This document shows, in pieces, positions 28,488-60,996 of a DNA stretch of 62,873 nt. The DNA comes from a virus: positions 1 through 62,873 of IMG/VR virus record IMGVR_UViG_3300009154_000059; one strand, given 5' to 3'. The notes beneath the pieces were generated by a model. It was given only the letters and a program-made list of their open reading frames with translations. It was not told the DNA's origin and searched no databases. The number at the start of each line of letters is the position of its first letter. Position 1 is the first letter of the stretch. Position numbers and translations under genes: made by a program.

Positions 28488-29192
28488 TTAATTGTTTAAA
28501 TATTTTAAAAAATATTTATTATCTATATTTTTTCTTAGTTTAGCTGTTAAAAAACTATAATTAATGTTATATTTTTCCGCAGCATCTTTAGCACAATCAA
28601 AAATTTCTTGTGTATTTAAATTAATTACTTTTTTAGCACTTTGATGCTTTCCTCTTTTGATTCCAAACATAGGGTGTTTTTCTCCTGTTCTACCATAATT
28701 AGGGTTTTTTTCACCAGTAGATCCAAATCTAGGATGAAGTTCTTTTGGTTTTCCTTTCCAAAATCCTATATTACCATAAGCAGGATGGTCTTTACCAAAT
28801 TTACCAAACATAGGATTATTTTTTCCAGATAAAGCTAAACTTTGTTTTTTTCTAGTCTCTTCAGAAGCTAAACCATTACTCCCAGGAAATCTAACATTTA
28901 GCATATTAAAACCTAATTCTTTAAAATATTTCCAATAATAAATTTCTTTATTATTTAATTCTTCTTGTGTTATATCTCTAGTAAAACATTCTAAAATTTC
29001 TATTTTATGGTTTTCATAACCATATTTTATTAAAGATCTATATATTTTTATTTGTTCTTCACATTTTAAATTTTTATATTTACTTTTTCTACTAGCCCAA
29101 TCTCTACTTTGTCCAATATATATTTTATTACTAGGGCTTATTATTTTATATATAACAACTAATTTTTTAGTATCTATATTTTTTGTTTCCAT
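28488..29192 (-). CDS. GIY-YIG homing endonuclease with NUMOD3 repeats
   Basis: The N-terminal GIY-YIG nuclease domain shows VIYKI then IYIGQS and a following Arg-rich helix. A central region has tandem NUMOD3-type DNA-binding repeats (KNPMFGK, HPAYGN, HPRFGS, KNPNYGR, HPMFGI). The C-terminus resembles a NUMOD1/HTH segment (VINLNTQEIFDCAKDAAEKY). The frame is open from an ATG at 29213, but the ATG at 29192 has the ATTATG context usual here and gives 234 residues. It overlaps the 3' end of the ring-protein gene by about 26 bases. Free-standing mobile gene inserted between two essential tail genes. Confidence 0.88.
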   Translation of the reverse strand: METKNIDTKKLVVIYKIISPSNKIYIGQSRDWASRKSKYKNLKCEEQIKIYRSLIKYGYENHKIEILECFTRDITQEELNNKEIYYWKYFKELGFNMLNVRFPGSNGLASEETRKKQSLALSGKNNPMFGKFGKDHPAYGNIGFWKGKPKELHPRFGSTGEKNPNYGRTGEKHPMFGIKRGKHQSAKKVINLNTQEIFDCAKDAAEKYNINYSFLTAKLRKNIDNKYFLKYLNN

Positions 29193-30102
29193 AATATCCA
29201 TTTTGTAATTCATATTTATTAAACCTATTTAGTTCTTCCACTATTTTATTTTGTTTTTGGTAAACTGTAGATTTTTTTATTTCTATATCTGCAAGGATAT
29301 ATGCTTCATCAGAAAGTTGTTTATAGTATTGTAGTTTTTTCTCTAACTGATTAAATGTTTCATCATTAGTTTGGTTAGTTAGCATTTCAAATAATTTATA
29401 TTTAATAAATGCTTCTACATATTCTTTTATTCTATAGTTATCAGGGATTAATTGATTCTGTACTTCATCATATTCTGTTACATACATTAATAAATGAACA
29501 ACTCCACATCTAAAATTAGTTACAAATTTATTATCTCTAATATCAAAAGAATCTAAAGAAGATGCATTAGGAACATAATTATGATTATTATATTCTACAG
29601 TACAATGTTGTTTAGCTGATATATTTCCTGGTTTTAATAAAAACTCTCTTCTATATGCTCTAGGAGTAGTGTTATTAGTTTTATATACAGCTTGTATTAC
29701 TTCAGGTTGACACATTCCATCACATTGTGGATTTGTACATTGAGGATTATTACAAGGTTGCCCTCCTACAGTCATAGGAGAAACTTGTATTATATTAGTA
29801 GAAGTTTGTGTATAAAAAGAGTTAGCATCTTGATAAGAAGTTAAAGGAATCTCAGAACACATCCAAGCTTCTCTAACAGCAAAAAAGTTATCAGGAAGTC
29901 TAGCTTCAAAATCTTCAACATATAATGTTTCTTGAGATATAACATAAGAAGATCTTCCCAGCTTTCTTAAACACTTGTCTAAGTAAGTAGGTAGCATTAA
30001 ATCATCTATTGCTCCTGTATCAAAGTAACTTTTAAGTTCCTCTTTTATTATAGAGTAAATAGGTTCAGGAGAAATAAAATTATATTTATAGTAGTATGAC
30101 AT
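29167..30102 (-). CDS. tail ring/connector protein (311 aa)
   Basis: This 311-residue protein has a helical N-terminus (IYSIIKEELKSYFDTGAIDDL), a central Cys-containing insertion (CNNPQCTNPQCDGMC, about residues 117-131) and a long helical C-terminal part ending in a basic Tyr-rich tail. It lies between the IHF-like gene and the large tail protein, the place occupied in crAss-like phages by a ring protein of the short tail. The CxxxxC/CxxxC cluster could bind a metal. Assignment is by position, length and resemblance to crAss-like connector proteins. Its 3' end is overlapped by a homing endonuclease gene. Confidence 0.68.
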   Translation of the reverse strand: MSYYYKYNFISPEPIYSIIKEELKSYFDTGAIDDLMLPTYLDKCLRKLGRSSYVISQETLYVEDFEARLPDNFFAVREAWMCSEIPLTSYQDANSFYTQTSTNIIQVSPMTVGGQPCNNPQCTNPQCDGMCQPEVIQAVYKTNNTTPRAYRREFLLKPGNISAKQHCTVEYNNHNYVPNASSLDSFDIRDNKFVTNFRCGVVHLLMYVTEYDEVQNQLIPDNYRIKEYVEAFIKYKLFEMLTNQTNDETFNQLEKKLQYYKQLSDEAYILADIEIKKSTVYQKQNKIVEELNRFNKYELQNGYYGNKKYRY

Positions 30103-38630: not shown

Positions 38631-39104
38631 TTATTTCTTTATTAGATTTACTACACGTTTTACATGAGTCATATCCATTTGAGGATTATGTAATTCTCTG
38701 TGACAATTAGAACATAAAAGCATACATTTTAAAGCTTCATTTAGAATTTCATCATCGTTTTTATATTTTAGCATTTGAACTTTAATTTCAAAACTTTTTT
38801 CATCAGGGTTTATATGATGAAAATCAAAAGCTGCTATATTTTTATCATATCCACATTTTTCACATTTTCCTCCAAATAATTCTATTAATTCTAGTTTCTT
38901 TTGGATTCCTTTGATTGTATATAGATTAAGACCATGAATATCTTTAAATGCTTTATTATTTTTAGAAGACTTTTTATATTTAGCAGCATCATGACATTTC
39001 TGATCACAAAACTTTTTATCTCTTCTAAAGTTTTTCTTACCTTCTTTTTGCTCAAGTTTTTTATTACAAAACTCGCAGTATTTATCTTCTAAAGAAGTTT
39101 CCAC
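38631..39104 (-). CDS. HNH homing endonuclease with zinc motifs
   Basis: This 157-residue protein has an N-terminal CxxC zinc motif (CEFC ... CDQKC), a basic helix (AAKYKKSSKNN), then a second zinc knuckle (CEKCGYD) leading into the HNH core: FDFHHINP, then CMLLCSNCHRELHNP. It starts with GTG, overlapping the capsid stop codon by one base (TAGTG). Such enzymes cut DNA and spread between phages; it is free-standing, placed directly after the capsid gene without disrupting it. Confidence 0.88.
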   Translation of the reverse strand: METSLEDKYCEFCNKKLEQKEGKKNFRRDKKFCDQKCHDAAKYKKSSKNNKAFKDIHGLNLYTIKGIQKKLELIELFGGKCEKCGYDKNIAAFDFHHINPDEKSFEIKVQMLKYKNDDEILNEALKCMLLCSNCHRELHNPQMDMTHVKRVVNLIKK

Positions 39105-40663
39105 TAAAATTGTGGAATCTCTTCTATCAATACTGTTCTAGATAAATCTTCAATGAATACATCACATCTGTCTTTCATCCAGATTTCATATCCAGGGAAT
39201 TTATTAGCTGAACTCATACCTTGAGATTTAGCAAATCCTAAGTGATGTCTTGTACCATCAATATAACCCCATGTCATTGAAGGAGCACCTTTCATTCTAA
39301 CTTCTCTAATGTTATTAACCATAGATCCATCAGACATTGGAGACACATCAAATACAAAGAATACAGGAGTTGATTTTTTGTTTTGTCCAAACTCTAAATT
39401 AGTTTGTGGTAAATCTAATTCTTTTAAGTGAACTAATTCAACTCTACCTGTTTCTCTTGTAACCATTGCATCAAATGCAAAGTTATAAGTGATGTGTTGT
39501 CCTTCTCCTTGCATATATCTGTTTCCAGAATCTGCCATGAAAGTTAAACCAGAGTTTAATGCATCATTTTTTAAAGCTTGTTGGAATACATCAAAACCTG
39601 CCTCATTAGTGTACATTTTAACTCGTCTATCTTTAACATCTACTCTTCTATAGAATAAATCTCCAAATACTGAACGAATTAAGTTAGCAGAAAATTCACC
39701 TCTATTATATTGTACTAAGTTACCATTGTTTCTCATTCTATGGTAAACACCAGCAGATGTACGTTTTAAGTTTTGTTGAGAACCATTAGTTTTAACTGTA
39801 GCTGGTTTAGCCCAGATCATACGTTTAACTTTTAATTCTAACATTGATTTTCTCATCCAGAATTCCACAAATGGCTCCCATTTAACATCATTACGAGTTA
39901 AAGGTAATTGGTTTCTTCTTTGTGGAGCATACACTAAAATATCTAGTGGTTTTCCAGAAGCATCAACCATCATTTTATCATCTGCCCATTCAGTGATTTT
40001 GTGCTCATAACCATATCCTGAACCTAATGATTCAAACATAGTAATTTGCTCACCTAATCTTGGAAGTCCTAATAAGTCTTGGTCAAACTCTCCAATTGCA
40101 GCATCTACTAATTCTAACTCTACTCCTACTTTCAAGAATGGAGAATTTGTTGGTAAATAATCAACAGTTGGATTATCTGTTAGAAGAGTGAATGTATATA
40201 AGAATCCCATGTTCCATGGTTGAGGATCTTTAATTACATAAAGTCTTGGACCATATTGTCTAGTTCCTACTGATACAATTGCATTTTTAGAAAACTCATT
40301 AGAGTCAATTACTAATGTAAACTCTTGTCCATCAATTCCAATTCTAGAATTATTAAAAGTGGAATTAGGAATATCAATAATTTTAGGGAACTTGTAAGGA
40401 ACAGCAATTTGCCATTTCCAAGCATCACTATTATTATCAATGTAATAAGGAGTTGACTTATTAATCATGTCTAAAAAGTCATTGCTATACAATGAACTTT
40501 GTGTGTACAAGCTGATTATTTTTTTATCATAGTCAGCTGGTTCTGTAGAGTGAAAAGACTCTAAGTGATTTGAGTCAGTTAATTTTCCTACTGCACGCTT
40601 ATCCATAGAGGCTACTCTTGCGTAGGTAAAACCAGTTAACCCTGGAATAGTTTGAATACTCAT
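39104..40663 (-). CDS. major capsid protein
   Basis: At 519 residues it is close to the usual size of crAss-like HK97-fold capsid proteins. Its start (TIPGLTGFTYARVASMDKR) and body match the crAss-like capsid pattern: a FHSTEPADYDKKI segment, VGTRQYGPRLYVIKDPQPWN, then LGLPRLGEQITMFESLGSGYG. It follows the scaffold-like gene and portal in the usual order. Phe/Asn/Gly-rich strands and a conserved-looking C-terminus (DRCDVFIEDLSRTVLIEEIP) argue it is intact. The N-terminal PGxxGFTYAR element recurs in one cargo protein. Confidence 0.88.
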   Translation of the reverse strand: MSIQTIPGLTGFTYARVASMDKRAVGKLTDSNHLESFHSTEPADYDKKIISLYTQSSLYSNDFLDMINKSTPYYIDNNSDAWKWQIAVPYKFPKIIDIPNSTFNNSRIGIDGQEFTLVIDSNEFSKNAIVSVGTRQYGPRLYVIKDPQPWNMGFLYTFTLLTDNPTVDYLPTNSPFLKVGVELELVDAAIGEFDQDLLGLPRLGEQITMFESLGSGYGYEHKITEWADDKMMVDASGKPLDILVYAPQRRNQLPLTRNDVKWEPFVEFWMRKSMLELKVKRMIWAKPATVKTNGSQQNLKRTSAGVYHRMRNNGNLVQYNRGEFSANLIRSVFGDLFYRRVDVKDRRVKMYTNEAGFDVFQQALKNDALNSGLTFMADSGNRYMQGEGQHITYNFAFDAMVTRETGRVELVHLKELDLPQTNLEFGQNKKSTPVFFVFDVSPMSDGSMVNNIREVRMKGAPSMTWGYIDGTRHHLGFAKSQGMSSANKFPGYEIWMKDRCDVFIEDLSRTVLIEEIPQF

Positions 40664-41933: not shown

Positions 41934-42072
41934 AATTTAGTTTGTATTAATATTTTGGTTTATTTTCTTTGTAAAATTATATAAGATATATTTAACTACA
42001 AAATTTTATTTTGTATTTTAAAAAAGTTTTTGAGATATATATAGCATTAAGTGTTTTTCTTATTAAAGTTTG

Positions 42073-49137: not shown

Positions 49138-49998
49138 CTATGTTATTCTTTTAAAATAACATCCCCTATGTTTATATTTACCATATTCATTATTAATACA
49201 TTTAATAATTTTAGCTTTTAAAAAATATTTAGAAGCCTCTTGTATAGAAGAATAAACCCTTTCTTCTTTTTTCTTTATATCATAAACTAATACTTTTGAT
49301 CTTTTTATATTTCTTTTTTCATAAGGAATAATATCTTCTAGATTTTTTTTAATATATTTTTTATAGTTGTAATCTTTCCAAGTTTTTCTTTTTTCTTTAA
49401 GAACTCTTTTAGTAAAATTAATATAATCAAAATTTGGATTATAATTTTCTTCTTTTATAATTAACCAACTTTTAAAAGATTTTCTAACTTTTTGTAAATC
49501 ATTAGTCCAATAAGAGCAATAATCTGATATTTTATTTATAGGACATTTTGTTATAACATGCACTTCTTTATAAGATTTTGTTTGTATTATTTCTTTAGTT
49601 ATTGAATTAATAACAACGCAACTAATTTCTTTTTTTAATCCCCTTTCTATCCCATTATTAATACTATTATTTTCAACTGTAATAGACCCTGGCAATACTT
49701 TATTATACCCATAGTCTTTTTCTAATGTTTTAAAAAACATTATCCATTTAGTCTCTATTTGTTCAAATTCTTTATTTGTTAAAGAATTGTCTAAATATTC
49801 TAGCATTGTATATTTAAAATTATCGAAACCATATTTATTAAAAGCACTTTGTAGATGTTGATTTGGGTGTATATTTTTCTTTAAATTAAATCTATGATTT
49901 TGCATCCTTCTAATGCAATTTCTAGAATATCCAATATATCTTTTATTATCAATTAAAGATATTATACTATAAACTCCAGGAACTTTTTTATTTGTCAT
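49138..49998 (-). CDS. GIY-YIG homing endonuclease (286 aa)
   Basis: The N-terminal nuclease domain is clear: GVYSIIS, then KRYIGYSRNCIRRMQNH, then LQSAFNKYGFDNFKYTMLEY, with catalytic Tyr and Arg positions as in the family. The rest is basic and includes a C-terminal segment (VLVYDIKKKEERVYSSIQEA) like the NUMOD1/HTH part of homing endonucleases. It stands alone between the two arms with a near-perfect Bacteroidota promoter of its own. It probably cuts phage DNA lacking it and spreads its own gene. Confidence 0.88.
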   Translation of the reverse strand: MTNKKVPGVYSIISLIDNKRYIGYSRNCIRRMQNHRFNLKKNIHPNQHLQSAFNKYGFDNFKYTMLEYLDNSLTNKEFEQIETKWIMFFKTLEKDYGYNKVLPGSITVENNSINNGIERGLKKEISCVVINSITKEIIQTKSYKEVHVITKCPINKISDYCSYWTNDLQKVRKSFKSWLIIKEENYNPNFDYINFTKRVLKEKRKTWKDYNYKKYIKKNLEDIIPYEKRNIKRSKVLVYDIKKKEERVYSSIQEASKYFLKAKIIKCINNEYGKYKHRGCYFKRIT

Positions 49999-50260: not shown

Positions 50261-50650
50261 ATGAAAACAAAAACTTTAACAAGTGGAAATTTTAGTGCTA
50301 ATGGTAATTTTAGTGGTTATGATGCACAAGGAGAAAGATGGTTTGTTCACGGTAGAGCAATGGAGGCTTTAGGAATAAAAGCAGACTCTGATTTAAAAGA
50401 TGTTTTTCCATTGTATGCTATGGTAACTGAAAGAGAGATTCAGAGTAGAGATGAAAATGGGGAGTTATCAGATACTATGGTAGTTCGTAAACAAGCTACT
50501 ACAGTATTTAGAACCATTGATGAATTGGTTAAAGCTAAAAATGCTGACATTGCTCTAGAGATTGCAATCAAAGCTGATTTAGAAGCTACAGTTAGTAAAT
50601 CAGGATTGACAGAGGCTTCTGTTAAAGCTCTATTAGAGGCTTCCATCTAA
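50261..50650 (+). CDS. conserved early protein of unknown function (129 aa)
   Basis: This 129-residue protein starts with Asn/Gly/Ser-rich strands (SGNFSANGNFSGYDAQGERW). It continues with FVHGRAMEALGIKADSDL, FPLYAMVTEREIQSRDENGEL and a helical Ala-rich C-terminus. It looks like a small beta-barrel plus helix; a nucleic-acid-binding role is possible but not shown. It is a single-gene transcription unit: promoter ahead, strong terminator directly behind. Its codons are somewhat less A/T-biased than those of the tiny genes to its right, which suggests strong expression. Family not recognised by name. Confidence 0.75.
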   Translation: MKTKTLTSGNFSANGNFSGYDAQGERWFVHGRAMEALGIKADSDLKDVFPLYAMVTEREIQSRDENGELSDTMVVRKQATTVFRTIDELVKAKNADIALEIAIKADLEATVSKSGLTEASVKALLEASI

Positions 50651-50664
50651 TATTAAGGAATAAG

Positions 50665-50696
50665 GAGAGAGTGATTAAGTTTGCTCTCTCTTTTTT
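50665..50696 (+). terminator. intrinsic terminator after the 129-aa gene
   Basis: GAGAGAG (50665-50671) pairs with CTCTCTC (50684-50690) around a 12-base loop, followed directly by TTTTTT. It lies 15 bases after the stop codon. Confidence 0.9.
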
Positions 50697-50704
50697 ATTC
50701 TATA

Positions 50705-50743
50705 TATATGGGTGGGATTTATCCTTAAATCTATAGGGTGGGA
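50705..50743 (+). repeat. direct repeat TATA(T/A)GGGTGGGA
   Basis: TATATGGGTGGGA (50705-50717) and TATAGGGTGGGA (50732-50743) are 26 bases apart. A related CTGTATAGGTGGAAAA lies at 50904-50919, with TATATAGG elements at 50771, 50831 and 50855. The shared TATAGG core resembles initiation sites of phage-encoded RNA polymerases. Confidence 0.6.
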
Positions 50744-50870
50744 AATACTATATCTTTTTATACATATATATATATAGGTATAGAATTTATCTTTTTATAC
50801 CTATATATTATATACTAATATTTATACCTATATATAGGAGTAAATATGTATATATATATAGGAGAATATT

Positions 50871-50993
50871 AAATTCTTACAAAATTGAGAATTTATTGTT
50901 TATCTGTATAGGTGGAAAAGTATATAAAATTGTATTTTTCAAGAAGTATTCTTACAAAAACTGTTAAAATATTCTTTAGAAATTCTTACAAAA
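50871..50993 (+). repeat. three TTCTTACAAAA direct repeats
   Basis: Copies begin at 50874, 50949 and 50983, and two share the longer AAATTCTTACAAAA. Spacings are 75 and 34 bases. Repeated sites of this kind suit iterons or activator sites. Confidence 0.6.
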
Positions 50994-51035
50994 TAAATAA
51001 ATGTATTTATATCTATATATAAGAGTAATCTAATA

Positions 51036-51072
51036 GCATACAAAAATGTATGCAAAAGATACAAAAATGTAT
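51036..51072 (+). repeat. tandem palindrome ATACAAAAATGTAT
   Basis: The 14-base palindromic element occurs at 51038-51051 and 51059-51072, 21 bases apart, i.e. two helical turns. The first copy is extended to GCATACA/TGTATGC (51036-51053). Same-face spacing suggests adjacent binding of a dimeric protein. Confidence 0.65.
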
Positions 51073-51325
51073 ATAGTGAGGTTTTGAGCCTATATAATAT
51101 AAACATATATATTAAGGAGAATACAAATTAATAGTAATATGGAATATATTCAAATAAATTTATCTAAATTGAGTGTAACTTATTGATTTTGTGGAGATAA
51201 TGATGGTAGTATAACACACTATTCCTTCTAAATAGCCTTACATCTTTCCTAAATATCCTTAGATTATTCCTCATTAATTATAGCATTATCCTTAACAAAC
51301 TAACAAACTAACATTTATATATATT

Positions 51326-51565
51326 ATGACTATACCTATTAATGATAATCTATATTCTGGAGATTGTGGATTATGGTATGATGTTATTAAACTAGAGAAT
51401 AATAAAACAATACATTGTGTATGTCCTTATTCTGAGTGTAAATCTTTTGATGATGCTATAGAGTATTATTTTAAGAATTTTCATAGAGAGAATAGTTTTC
51501 CTATTGTTGTAGAGCATCATAAAATATCAAAGAAATCATTAGAAGCACTAGCATTAGCATGTTAA
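51326..51565 (+). CDS. hypothetical early protein (79 aa)
   Basis: This soluble 79-residue protein has a Cys-rich middle (CGLWYDVIKLENNKTIHCVC then CKSFDDAIEYYF) that could bind a metal, and a hydrophobic C-terminal helix (SLEALALAC). The start has the ATTATG context. First gene of the early arm after the control region. Function unknown. Confidence 0.6.
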   Translation: MTIPINDNLYSGDCGLWYDVIKLENNKTIHCVCPYSECKSFDDAIEYYFKNFHRENSFPIVVEHHKISKKSLEALALAC

Positions 51566-51608
51566 AATAACAACACAATTATTAACTAATTAAAAAATTA
51601 ACAACATT

Positions 51609-51857
51609 ATGAAAACTATTAAAGTATTAGTAGAAATTAAAGTAGATGAAGAAAATATAACAGAATTATATCCTAATTATAGTATTAATTATGATGATGT
51701 TGATACATTTATTGAGTCTATTATTAATGATTTAGAAACTCCTATGGAGGAAGATGGTTTACCAACTGATTATTTAAAAGAGTTTGGTTATTCTGTTAGA
51801 GTTTTATCAAGAGAAGATGCTAAACTATTAGATATTGATCTTTTAAATAACAATTAA
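51609..51857 (+). CDS. hypothetical acidic early protein (82 aa)
   Basis: An 82-residue acidic soluble protein with a beta-strand start (KTIKVLVEIKVDEENI) and an acidic middle (DDVDTFIESIINDLE). Start context ACATTATG. The family is not recognised. Confidence 0.6.
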   Translation: MKTIKVLVEIKVDEENITELYPNYSINYDDVDTFIESIINDLETPMEEDGLPTDYLKEFGYSVRVLSREDAKLLDIDLLNNN

Positions 51858-51870
51858 AATCATAAACATT

Positions 51871-52101
51871 ATGAATCAAGTTACAATAAGTATAACATCT
51901 CTATTGATGTATATATTTGGGTTTATTATTATATACTGTCTTGTGTATAAACAATATACAAAAGAAGACTCGGAGTCTTGGAAAAAAGAGAATAAATTAG
52001 GTCTTTTTGTATTTTGTGCTCTTGCTTCTTTAGGTATATTAATTATAATTACAGGATTTATAGAGATATTATTAACAACAAAGTTTATATTTACATTATG
52101 A
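51871..52101 (+). CDS. two-helix membrane protein (76 aa)
   Basis: Two hydrophobic segments (about residues 5-24 and 44-73) are separated by a charged loop (KQYTKEDSESWKKENK). The stop overlaps the next ATG (ATGA), so the two membrane genes are translationally coupled. First member of the tiny membrane-protein array. Confidence 0.6.
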   Translation: MNQVTISITSLLMYIFGFIIIYCLVYKQYTKEDSESWKKENKLGLFVFCALASLGILIIITGFIEILLTTKFIFTL

Positions 52102-52400
52102 AAACAATGTATATTCTTATACCACTTAGTTTTATTATTGCTTTTTTACTTACATTATTATACAAATATATAGATTCTAATTTTTCAGATAAAGGTAGAT
52201 TGATTATATATTCTAGTATATGTTTTATATTAATTATAGTATTAATAGTTTTAATATCAAAACTTAAAATTAAAAAGTATGACTATAAACTCAATCTAAG
52301 AAAAGATTATAGAGTAGAGCTTATAGACTCTGATAATAATATCATACAGACAACAACATTAGATAGTATTCCTTATTATATTAATCAAGATAATAAATAA
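52098..52400 (+). CDS. two-helix membrane protein (100 aa)
   Basis: Starting at the coupled ATG at 52098 (an upstream in-frame start is possible but less likely), it has two membrane segments (about 3-22 and 36-55) and a soluble basic/polar tail with LNLRKDYRVELIDSDNN. The tail probably faces the cytoplasm. Function unknown. Confidence 0.6.
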   Translation: MKTMYILIPLSFIIAFLLTLLYKYIDSNFSDKGRLIIYSSICFILIIVLIVLISKLKIKKYDYKLNLRKDYRVELIDSDNNIIQTTTLDSIPYYINQDNK

Positions 52401-52406
52401 AACATT

Positions 52407-52523
52407 ATGATAACATTATGTATTCTTCCTAATTTTAGAGGAACAAGAAGAGAACATTGTAAAGCATTATTAATCTGTATAGGATTAGATATGTTATATA
52501 TTGTTCCATTATTATTAACATAG
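52407..52523 (+). CDS. 38-residue hydrophobic microprotein
   Basis: Runs from ATG at 52407 to TAG at 52521-52523, with an ACATTATG start context. After a short basic stretch (FRGTRREH) the second half is hydrophobic (LLICIGLDMLYIVPLLL), enough for one membrane span. It sits in line with similar genes. Confidence 0.4.
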   Translation: MITLCILPNFRGTRREHCKALLICIGLDMLYIVPLLLT

Positions 52524-52594
52524 AGAGAATTATTATTATATTTTCTTTAAATTTGTGACAACAATATTATAGCATTAACTAATTTTTTACAATT

Positions 52595-52771
52595 ATGAAC
52601 ACATTATATATTATTATATTTATTGTATTATTCTTTTGTTTATGGAGAATAATATATTTAGGATTGAGAAAATATCCTATAGCTAATGTTACAACAGATT
52701 TAGTTCTCTCTTTCTGTTATACATTAGTAATGTATTTTTTAACAACATTATTAGCATTATTTATTAACTAA
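52595..52771 (+). CDS. two-helix membrane microprotein (58 aa)
   Basis: From ATG at 52595 (AATTATG context) to TAA at 52769-52771. Hydrophobic segments at about residues 4-22 and 37-57 flank a basic polar loop (GLRKYPIANVTTD). Too short for most gene callers; supported by start context and neighbours of the same type. Confidence 0.5.
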   Translation: MNTLYIIIFIVLFFCLWRIIYLGLRKYPIANVTTDLVLSFCYTLVMYFLTTLLALFIN

Positions 52772-52883
52772 CATTATTTTAACAAGTCCTAGAACATCAG
52801 GATGTAGTACATATATGACTTCAAAATATAAAGGGTTTCTTAGAAAGAATAACTACTTAAAATAATTTAACAATTTAACAATT

Positions 52884-52970
52884 ATGAAATACATATTTAT
52901 ATGGATTGTATATGAGTTTGTAAGGAGTAAAATAATAAAACTAATCTATTATATATTAAATAAAAACTAA
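52884..52970 (+). CDS. 28-residue membrane microprotein
   Basis: ATG at 52884 (AATTATG context, after an AATTTAACAATTTAACAATT repeat) to TAA at 52968-52970. A single hydrophobic/basic amphipathic stretch. Weak support by size alone; listed because it sits three bases before the next tiny gene. Confidence 0.35.
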   Translation: MKYIFIWIVYEFVRSKIIKLIYYILNKN

Positions 52971-52972
52971 TT

Positions 52973-53056
52973 ATGAAAAAACCAGAAAAAATAATTATTG
53001 TATGTGCTATTGTATATACAATATGTATATTGTCTTATATTAATTATAACTTTTGA
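52973..53056 (+). CDS. 27-residue single-span microprotein
   Basis: ATG at 52973 to TGA at 53054-53056. A basic start (MKKPEK) and a clear hydrophobic span (IIIVCAIVYTICILSYI) give the positive-inside pattern of a small inner-membrane protein. Start context AATTATG. Confidence 0.4.
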   Translation: MKKPEKIIIVCAIVYTICILSYINYNF

Positions 53057-53060
53057 TATT

Positions 53061-53204
53061 ATGCTAACTATAGAGTATCAAATCATATATTGTAATCTTA
53101 TAATAGATAGACAATATACAATAAAAGAACACGAGGATATGTTAAATACATATAATACAATATATCCTGGACAATTAAAAACTAAAATAATAAATTTATG
53201 TTAG
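53061..53204 (+). CDS. hypothetical small protein (47 aa)
   Basis: The ATG at 53061 (ATATTATG context) is preferred over an in-frame ATG at 52998, because the latter would run through the preceding microprotein. A short soluble protein with a polar end (DMLNTYNTIYPGQ). It overlaps the next gene's ATG by 7 bases. Confidence 0.45.
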   Translation: MLTIEYQIIYCNLIIDRQYTIKEHEDMLNTYNTIYPGQLKTKIINLC

Positions 53205-53398
53205 TAATTTATTTTTTGTCTATTTTAATTAGTAGACAGTTGTGTTTGTTGTTAGTGAATGAGCAGAGAGTGAAAGCTCTCTGTTTTATTCCAATAATAA
53301 ACTTATATTATGTATTAATAATTTATTCTAAACTCTTAATTAAAAAATATGAACAGCAACATTCACAATGTACAAGAAATGGTATTAATTATGTATAA
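53198..53398 (+). CDS. two-helix membrane protein (66 aa)
   Basis: Hydrophobic segments at about residues 2-19 and 27-47 are separated by a short charged turn (NEQRVKA). The C-terminus is polar with Cys (KKYEQQHSQCTRNG). Start overlaps the upstream gene by 7 bases. Function unknown. Confidence 0.5.
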   Translation: MLVIYFLSILISRQLCLLLVNEQRVKALCFIPIINLYYVLIIYSKLLIKKYEQQHSQCTRNGINYV

Positions 53399-53516
53399 TG
53401 TATTACCAGAAGAAGCCTCTTTAGAGCAAATATTAGAAGCTACAAGAGCTTTAATTAAAGAAGAGGATGTTATTCCTCATAGAAGAAAAACAATTGATTG
53501 GGAGGACTTAATTTAA
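53391..53516 (+). CDS. small soluble protein (41 aa)
   Basis: The start at 53391 has the AATTATG context and overlaps the upstream stop by 8 bases; a longer in-frame start at 53349 is possible. A helical acidic protein (EEASLEQILEATRALIKEED) followed by basic HRRKTIDWEDLI. Function unknown. Confidence 0.45.
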   Translation: MYNVLPEEASLEQILEATRALIKEEDVIPHRRKTIDWEDLI

Positions 53517-53528
53517 AAAATAATAATT

Positions 53529-53774
53529 ATGAAAAAAATAAAAATAGCAATAGTAAACTTTTTAACTCCACAACCTGAAATAAAAGAGGATTATGTGGAT
53601 AAAGTAGTTTATCTATTAAGAAGAGATTTTACAACTACAGAGCAAAATGAAATTGTAATATCTATTACAAAAAAGTTAGCAGATTTAAGAGAACAAGATA
53701 TGACTAGAATGTCAAAAGAATATGAACTCTTACAAAATGATCATTTAACTCTTAAACAAGCAATATTATGTTAG
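53529..53774 (+). CDS. hypothetical helical protein (81 aa)
   Basis: An 81-residue soluble helical protein with a basic N-terminus (MKKIKIAIVNFLTPQP) and coiled-coil-like charge pattern (KLADLREQDMTRMSKEYELL). AATTATG start context. Its end overlaps the next ATG by 7 bases. Family not recognised. Confidence 0.55.
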   Translation: MKKIKIAIVNFLTPQPEIKEDYVDKVVYLLRRDFTTTEQNEIVISITKKLADLREQDMTRMSKEYELLQNDHLTLKQAILC

Positions 53775-53932
53775 AATATTGTATAGTTTGTTATCTTGTA
53801 GCATTTGGAATTTTACTAAATGAACATGAAGAATTACATCAATGGACAAACAATGACATTATATGTTTTATATTTGCTCCTTTTTGTATTCCTGTTATAT
53901 TTGGAATGTATTTAAATGATAAAAAGAAATGA
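53768..53932 (+). CDS. two-helix membrane protein (54 aa)
   Basis: ATG at 53768 to TGA at 53930-53932. Hydrophobic segments at about residues 5-17 and 31-48 enclose an acidic loop (NEHEELHQWTNND); the C-terminus is basic (DKKK). The stop overlaps the following ATG (ATGA). Last membrane protein of the array. Confidence 0.5.
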   Translation: MLEYCIVCYLVAFGILLNEHEELHQWTNNDIICFIFAPFCIPVIFGMYLNDKKK

Positions 53933-54105
53933 GAAAAAGAATCCCAGCTAAAATAGTTGTTGGGCAATTAGTAGGCTCCACAAACCCTGTGCAATTATCT
54001 TGTATCAGGGTTTTACACATTGAACATCATTATAATTATACAAATTATAATAGAATAAAAAGATTAGTTAACCATAATAATGACAATTATGAAATTTCAA
54101 AATAG
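53929..54105 (+). CDS. small basic soluble protein (58 aa)
   Basis: ATG at 53929 coupled to the previous stop, ending TAG at 54103-54105. Basic start (MRKRIPAKIV), then a His/Asn/Tyr-rich part. Its codons are less A/T-biased near 53970-54010 (GGCTCCACAAACCCTG), perhaps because of transfer. It overlaps the next gene by 17 bases. Function unknown. Confidence 0.45.
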   Translation: MRKRIPAKIVVGQLVGSTNPVQLSCIRVLHIEHHYNYTNYNRIKRLVNHNNDNYEISK

Positions 54106-60661: not shown

Positions 60662-60910
60662 ATGAAAGCAAAATTAATATTTGATTTTTCAAAACCAGGA
60701 GATGATTTAATTTATAGAAGAACTAATAAAGCACTTGATTTATCATTAGCTATATTTGATATTCTTCAAATTAGAAGAGAATTAACTAAAGAATGGGAAT
60801 CTAAAGAAGAATTAAATAATGAATATATAAATGGAGTTAATAGATTTTCAGAAGAAATAAAAAATATATTAGAGGCATATAATATAAATATAGATGATTT
60901 AATAGAATGA
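60662..60910 (+). CDS. hypothetical protein in replication cluster (82 aa)
   Basis: An 82-residue soluble helical protein. Its start KAKLIFDFSKPGDDLIYRRTNKALDLS (written as residues 2-28) resembles small phage proteins that lie near the replication genes. The C-terminal half is acidic and helical. Its stop overlaps the next ATG (ATGA). Unknown function. Confidence 0.6.
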   Translation: MKAKLIFDFSKPGDDLIYRRTNKALDLSLAIFDILQIRRELTKEWESKEELNNEYINGVNRFSEEIKNILEAYNINIDDLIE

Positions 60911-60996
60911 ATTATAAAGAAGGAAATAAAACTCTAATTATATCTTTTATAATTAGTATAATAGTAATATGTATTATATATGGACATTTTAATTGA
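60907..60996 (+). CDS. 29-residue single-span membrane microprotein
   Basis: ATG at 60907 coupled to the upstream stop, ending TGA at 60994-60996. A basic start (NYKEGNKT) and one hydrophobic span (LIISFIISIIVICIIYG). Resembles the array of tiny membrane proteins near 52,000-53,900. Confidence 0.45.
   Translation: MNYKEGNKTLIISFIISIIVICIIYGHFN

Follow-up and report, generated by a model that had tools for sequence, protein, structure and literature searches.

Positions 51871-53932 of IMG/VR virus record IMGVR_UViG_3300009154_000059 raise the question of why a phage would carry a chain of very small, mostly hydrophobic genes at the head of its early arm. The record is a 62.9-kb virus fragment, and the window referred to below is its whole stretch of 62,873 nucleotides (nt). 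An earlier note, made from the letters alone, described this interval as an array of at least eight tiny membrane proteins interspersed with short soluble ones and proposed a candidate undescribed system for host takeover, lysis timing or superinfection exclusion. The analysis presented here indicates that the array is genuine, that it contains two conserved microprotein families (52407 and 53768, each named, like the other genes, after its first position) and that the locus may act on the host envelope.

Coding evidence for the array

All frames named in the earlier note are present in the sequence. The plus strand of 51871-53932 carries 12 ATG-initiated open reading frames (ORFs) of at least 27 amino acids (aa), covering 90% of the interval, and the antisense strand carries one, covering 4%. 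Dinucleotide shuffles of the interval (500) gave a mean of 2.0 such ORFs and 10% coverage, and the observed values were reached in 0/500. The excess extends to ORFs of at least 50 aa (seven against a shuffle mean of 0.14) and to ORFs with a hydrophobic 19-residue stretch (eight against 0.34). One of the 12, a hydrophobic ORF at 53820-53915, lies out of frame within 53768 and is probably spurious. The ORF set as a whole is not a product of chance, and the array is real. At 22%, its guanine-cytosine (GC) content is the lowest in the window's 2-kb profile; because just 15-24% of the chance ORFs in AT-rich shuffles are hydrophobic, low GC leaves the hydrophobic set unexplained. The lengths of 52884, 52973 and 53061, taken alone, are within chance, leaving start context and head-to-tail packing as their support.

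The start context is a distinctive property of the array. ATT precedes the ATG at 11 of the 13 starts from 51326 to 53768, in agreement with the (A)ATTATG context described earlier, and it precedes 2/17 other starts of the plus arm (Fisher p = 1e-4), 3/28 late genes (p = 7e-6) and 6/53 non-start ATGs in the region (p = 7e-7). This enrichment backs even the frames of 27-47 aa as intended starts and sets the array apart from the genes downstream. Repeats such as AACATTATGAAAAC recur at several array starts.

Membrane calls were made by hydropathy and, for 52407 and 53768, also from AlphaFold2 (AF2) helices. Seven of the eight proteins described as hydrophobic have a predicted membrane segment, and the eighth, 52884, is borderline (28 aa, best 19-residue Kyte-Doolittle hydropathy (KD) 1.30). 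Coupling of many genes through overlaps was also claimed; true overlaps exist but are few (51871/52098, 53061/53198, 53198/53349, 53529/53768 and, at the edge, 53768/53929). The soluble gene placed at 53391 starts instead at 53349, as judged from homologues in L102 and L076, and so overlaps the end of 53198. An alternative stop-codon code was tried and rejected, as no relevant frame of the array becomes longer under table 15.

Two conserved microprotein families

Conservation was assessed in a comparison set of 80 relatives at 80-100% identity from a terminase scan, with genes called from ORFs for this analysis and not taken from curated annotation. The 52407 family (21 distinct sequences) shares the motif MITLCxxPNFxGT...LDxxYxxP, and its invariant positions include the initial MIT, N9, G12, D28, Y31 and P34. 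The proportion of nonsynonymous differences (pN) is below that of synonymous differences (pS) in 209/210 pairs, and the ratio of the corresponding rates (dN/dS) is 0.11-0.42 in near pairs. The AF2 model contains one long helix at residues 14-37, with a mean predicted local distance difference test score (pLDDT) of 76, in which D28 would sit mid-membrane.

The 53768 family (17 distinct sequences) has pN below pS in 127/136 pairs and dN/dS of 0.08-0.31 in its eight closest pairs. Its invariant residues are Y4, G14, P38, P42 and G46, and it is marked by an acidic loop, a basic tail and a PxxxPxxxG motif in the second of two hydrophobic helices (AF2 model, residues 2-19 and 28-53, mean pLDDT 87.5). 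The acidic loop and basic tail suggest that both ends of the modeled protein are cytoplasmic. The 53929 gene accompanies 53768 in all 18 of its loci and in no others, always just downstream.

By these sequence comparisons, 52407 and 53768 are new, conserved families under purifying selection. Cellular relatives of 52407 were not found in GTDB genomes, and isolate phages gave no match to 52407, 53768 or one of the relatives' lipoproteins. DUF6814 was considered as a relative of 53768 and rejected, the match being weak and confined to 2/12 members. As a separate observation, L014 and L020 encode a coiled-coil-like protein of 78-82 aa with a C-terminal hydrophobic helix between their 53768 and 53929 homologues; the protein is encoded at L014 3416-3652 (-) (6349-6585 of the reverse complement of L014 1-10000) and in nine other loci, and is absent from the window.

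The upstream element and transcription unit

A hairpin terminator (50662-50693, 13 pairs and then a T-run) follows the first early gene, 50261, and the array starts after a TATAGCATT element. This element stands downstream of the first early gene in 35/39 distinct genomes, the window included, against an expectation of 0.047 per 800 nt. Its distance from that gene is 189-516 nt in relatives and 628 nt in the window, and it is often directly before an ATG. Exact TATAGCATTA matches occur in the window only at 42040, 51279 and 52568 (Table 1). The TATAGCATT element is presumably a phage promoter or leader; the TATAGCATTA element, likewise conserved downstream of the first early gene in 35/39 genomes, is a candidate phage promoter that possibly gives rise to leaderless mRNAs. 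Between the terminator and the array, about 630 nt (50694-51325) lack a convincing plus-strand gene. An Rfam search over the locus returned a single chance-level match.

Table 1. Genes and sequence elements of the early-arm locus, with positions in the window.
Feature	Position	Strand	Evidence
TATAGCATTA element before array, candidate array promoter	51279..51288	+	exact match
Second TATAGCATTA element, intergenic within array	52568..52577	+	exact match
Third TATAGCATTA element, late arm, next to portal gene	42040-42049	+	exact match; also in relatives
Upstream anchor: first early gene (soluble, 129 aa)	50261..50650	+	15 loci matched by tblastn
79-aa soluble gene, first ORF of array unit	51326..51565	+	no relatives found
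82-aa soluble gene	51609..51857	+	57% identity to L076 homologue
76-aa membrane protein, two predicted segments, lineage-specific	51871..52101	+	KD 2.66; no relatives
100-aa membrane protein, C-terminal soluble domain, small family	52098..52400	+	relatives L014, L051/L100
Core 38-aa single-helix membrane protein	52407..52523	+	21 distinct sequences
58-aa membrane protein, lineage-specific	52595..52771	+	KD 2.64; marginal matches only
28-aa weakly hydrophobic ORF, status uncertain	52884..52970	+	KD 1.30; ATT-ATG; marginal L002 match, E 2e-4
27-aa putative single-span membrane protein, lineage-specific	52973..53056	+	KD 2.19; ATT-ATG
47-aa soluble ORF, lineage-specific	53061..53204	+	ORF list, relative search, start context
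66-aa membrane protein, lineage-specific	53198..53398	+	KD 2.26; no relatives
55-aa soluble protein	53349..53516	+	homologues in L102 (39%, E 4e-10) and L076
81-aa soluble protein directly before 53768, arranged likewise in L014	53529..53774	+	60% identity to L014
Core 54-aa membrane hairpin	53768..53932	+	17 distinct sequences
Soluble basic protein of 58 aa, always with 53768	53929..54105	+	18/18 loci with 53768

A conserved core with replaceable cargo

Very probably, the locus consists of a conserved core and replaceable cargo. The 52407 gene is upstream of 53768 in 10/10 loci that carry both, and the gap between them is 5 nt in L020, 12 nt in L096 and L097, 433-719 nt in five loci, 1244 nt in the window and 1383 nt in L102. 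In L076, the 51609 homologue runs 4 nt into the 52407 homologue; the window has 51871 and 52098 between the two genes. The varying gaps and the L076 arrangement point to genes gained or lost around fixed neighbors. Dense small membrane genes are found mainly in the 53768-bearing group (seven in 2.06 kb in the window, six in L048 and in L096), and many other relatives have 0-2. Absences in these locus counts are soft because some of the contigs are truncated.

The earlier note had pointed to conserved frames in related genomes as a check on the array. Such conservation is clear for 52407 and 53768 and weak for 52098, whose family gives a profile E value of 1e-37, and it does not extend to the other hydrophobic frames: neither the more than 100 related loci nor a dedicated scan gave a convincing relative of 51871, 52595, 52973 or 53198, and 52884 has a marginal one only. 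No near relative covering the whole array appeared in the scan.

These roughly five frames (51871, 52595, 52884, 52973 and 53198) might be young genes, arisen de novo from AT-rich transcribed DNA and of weak or no function, with 52407 and 53768 as the only established membrane genes. Their lack of relatives and the locally minimal GC content speak for such an origin, which is possible but unlikely. In yeast, T-rich DNA favors membrane ORFs and gives rise to de novo transmembrane proto-genes (PMC7005711), which are likewise short, AT-rich and lineage-specific; the present case differs in concerning a phage and in having core members under purifying selection. Against a recent origin, the hydrophobic fraction of shuffle ORFs is small, as described above, and ORFs of 58-76 aa are rare by chance. 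The frames have a start context in common that is lacking at non-start ATGs, and they fill the strand with almost no gaps. Proto-genes are defined by having neither homologues nor purifying selection, and 52407 and 53768 clearly have both.

Lipoproteins and other features of related loci

Small lipoproteins are encoded in the comparison loci by 26 distinct genes, almost all of them on the early strand; reversed sequence yields 4. One such gene, for a 39-aa product, lies 3 nt upstream of the 52407 homologue in L096 and L097; the window has no such gene. The early strand of relatives encodes very short lipoproteins (38-62 aa), each having a lipobox and one more Cys, at L019 5933-6070, L029 4077-4193, L032 4360-4548, L049 2126-2269, L065 5948-6073, L096 5878-5997 and L104 7001-7189. 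The very short L029 lipoprotein had no match in isolate phages.

A small domain with the approximate consensus DSIxVxDxxxxVG was observed in L088 (516-713), L090 (4738-4935), L083 (5915-6109), L029 (4582-4866), L032 (4748-4957) and L008 (3623-3856). It is carried on either a lipoprotein signal or a membrane helix, an apparent anchor swap. The C-terminal domain of 52098 resembles this lipoprotein/transmembrane domain of L088, L090, L083, L029, L032 and L008 by eye; the candidate was rejected at an hhalign probability of 0.4%. In L124, a phage lysozyme with an N-terminal hydrophobic signal is encoded in the early arm at 1351-1920, about 5 kb downstream of its 52407 homologue.

The source phage

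By the type of its capsid, portal, tail ring and terminase, the window belongs to an uncultivated crAss-like phage (Crassvirales). A major capsid protein of crAss type is encoded at 39104-40663 (PF23898, E 1.8e-26; phrog_11589, E 1.8e-30), together with a crAss-type portal (phrog_6547, E 2e-103) and a tail ring (CrAss_Ring_2, E 2.9e-22), and TerL resembles those of Cellulophaga phi17:2 and phi4:1 and of gut crAss phages. The nearest isolate phage by terminase is Leptolyngbya phage Lbo-JY46, at just 40% identity, followed by Cellulophaga phages at about 31%. Late genes, among them very large ORFs, run leftward on the minus strand; early and replication genes run rightward on the plus strand and include those for a DNA polymerase A (58636) and a DnaB-like helicase (61690). 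A host assignment by terminase in GTDB led to a single contig binned as Clostridiales UBA4821 and is not trusted. The 403-aa product of 54080, used as an anchor query, gave no match.

Homing endonuclease genes were observed on the minus strand: a GIY-YIG gene with NUMOD1 at the arm boundary (49138-49998), an HNH gene adjoining the capsid gene (38631-39104) and a late-arm ORF that bears NUMOD3 (28488-29213). In the replication cluster, a 29-aa hydrophobic ORF at 60907-60996 (+) is identical in the near-identical contig L001 (3980-4069); a wider family of this ORF was not found.

Proposed function and alternatives

The best overall explanation, held here at about an even chance, is an accessory locus of the early arm whose products act on the host envelope. 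The locus heads the early arm, where a new unit would begin at TATAGCATT after the terminator of the first early gene. The very small genes strung along it share the ATT-ATG start and include a core of 52407 and 53768/53929; other small genes, lineage-specific and in the window mostly encoding membrane proteins, are gained and lost beside and between the core genes. The array proteins would be made soon after injection and then inserted in the inner membrane, where they might bind membrane proteins of the host or of the phage by way of the invariant intramembrane Asp of 52407 and a proline/glycine face of 53768. The envelope of the infected cell would thus be altered, most likely in a way that blocks DNA entry of later phages, or otherwise in a way that counters membrane-linked defence. 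The position of the array, its membrane location, its high turnover and the lipoproteins of the same arm all fit proteins that work on the envelope early in infection. Envelope-directed takeover of some kind is somewhat probable, and superinfection exclusion specifically is a tentative assignment, well short of an even chance; we infer the early timing, topology, target and function of the array. The early position, membrane nature and lack of description claimed in the earlier note all stand, while 'system' is too strong a word. Among the functions it offered, superinfection exclusion gains support from the relatives' tiny early-strand lipoproteins, and lysis timing becomes less likely.

Known exclusion proteins offer partial parallels. 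T4 Imm, an exclusion protein of the plasma membrane, has been described as resembling a holin (PMC6832632), and 53768 is likewise holin-like in predicted topology; it differs from T4 Imm and Sp in having no sequence or fold match to them and in belonging to an array of many membrane genes in a crAss-like phage. T5 Llp, a small lipoprotein, acts from the periplasm to jam a TonB-dependent receptor (PMC9586334). The tiny lipoproteins in the relatives' early arm are comparable to T5 Llp and Cor, whereas predicted membrane helices dominate the window array, which has no lipobox protein. In phiCrAss001, early genes also occupy one arm and are transcribed 0-10 min after infection, with a virion RNA polymerase thought to be required (PMC8375218). 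The available portion of that account lists a regulator, conserved-domain proteins and a TROVE protein as early products and does not mention a membrane array (PMC8375218).

Several observations count against an envelope-acting locus. Early expression is read from position only. Exclusion proteins are often single genes, not arrays. The array proteins have no Pfam, PHROG or NCBIfam match above cut-off and no convincing sequence match to a known exclusion protein, a Foldseek search of the 53768 model against BFVD and PDB found nothing significant, and no N-terminal lipobox is present among the array proteins of the window. In addition, about 14 loci have 52407 but lack 53768, and 8 have 53768 but lack 52407, some of these loci being truncated; because each occurs without the other, the two are not an obligate pair.

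An anti-defence array, in which the short genes would mainly encode inhibitors of host defence in the manner of anti-CRISPRs and the membrane members would act against membrane-acting abortive systems, is unlikely. Arrays of short unique genes in crAss-like phages are suspected to hold anti-CRISPRs (PMC7886860), and the present array is likewise made of short unique genes, with strong cargo turnover and several small soluble members. It differs in consisting mostly of membrane proteins and in including two conserved core families, and membrane character is unusual among known anti-CRISPRs. No credible match to a PADLOC profile was found, the best (E 0.0025, to a ThsA model) overlapping a membrane segment.

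Lysis control, with 53768 or another member as holin, antiholin or lysis-timing protein, is improbable. The two-helix model of 53768, with a charge pattern suggesting an N-in/C-in topology, would suit a holin, as would small proteins with one to few membrane helices generally (the 52407 and 53768 models). Relative G017, moreover, has a lysozyme gene about 5 kb downstream of its 52407 homologue, with both genes on one strand. However, endolysin domains occur in 3/15 relatives' records and none adjoins 52407 or 53768, the window itself being a fragment. The array also heads the early arm, whereas in crAss001 the expression of holin and endolysin follows that of the early module and accompanies that of the assembly genes (PMC8375218). 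Membrane anchoring, by which early membrane proteins would tether phage DNA or its RNA polymerase, is very improbable: the array shares an arm with polA and DnaB and the basic soluble 53929 is conserved together with 53768, but the cargo turns over far faster than replication genes and many crAss-like relatives lack 53768.

An envelope-acting locus could also be taken further. It is doubtful, though conceivable, that a clade-wide, promoter-marked insertion locus in environmental crAss-like phages, gathering membrane microproteins around 52407 and 53768, forms an envelope-control module of an undescribed sort, be it a new kind of multi-protein superinfection exclusion or of membrane defence evasion.

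Implications for crAss-like phages

crAss-like phages are among the most abundant viruses, and most of their early genes are unannotated; genes below 60 aa are readily dropped from annotation. What is solid here is a pair of new microprotein families, together with an upstream element that is conserved. Both short families are under clear selection and absent from the libraries searched. Because the element marks the array start in at least 35 genomes, it offers a systematic way to gather candidate takeover genes for testing in Bacteroidota hosts that are in culture.

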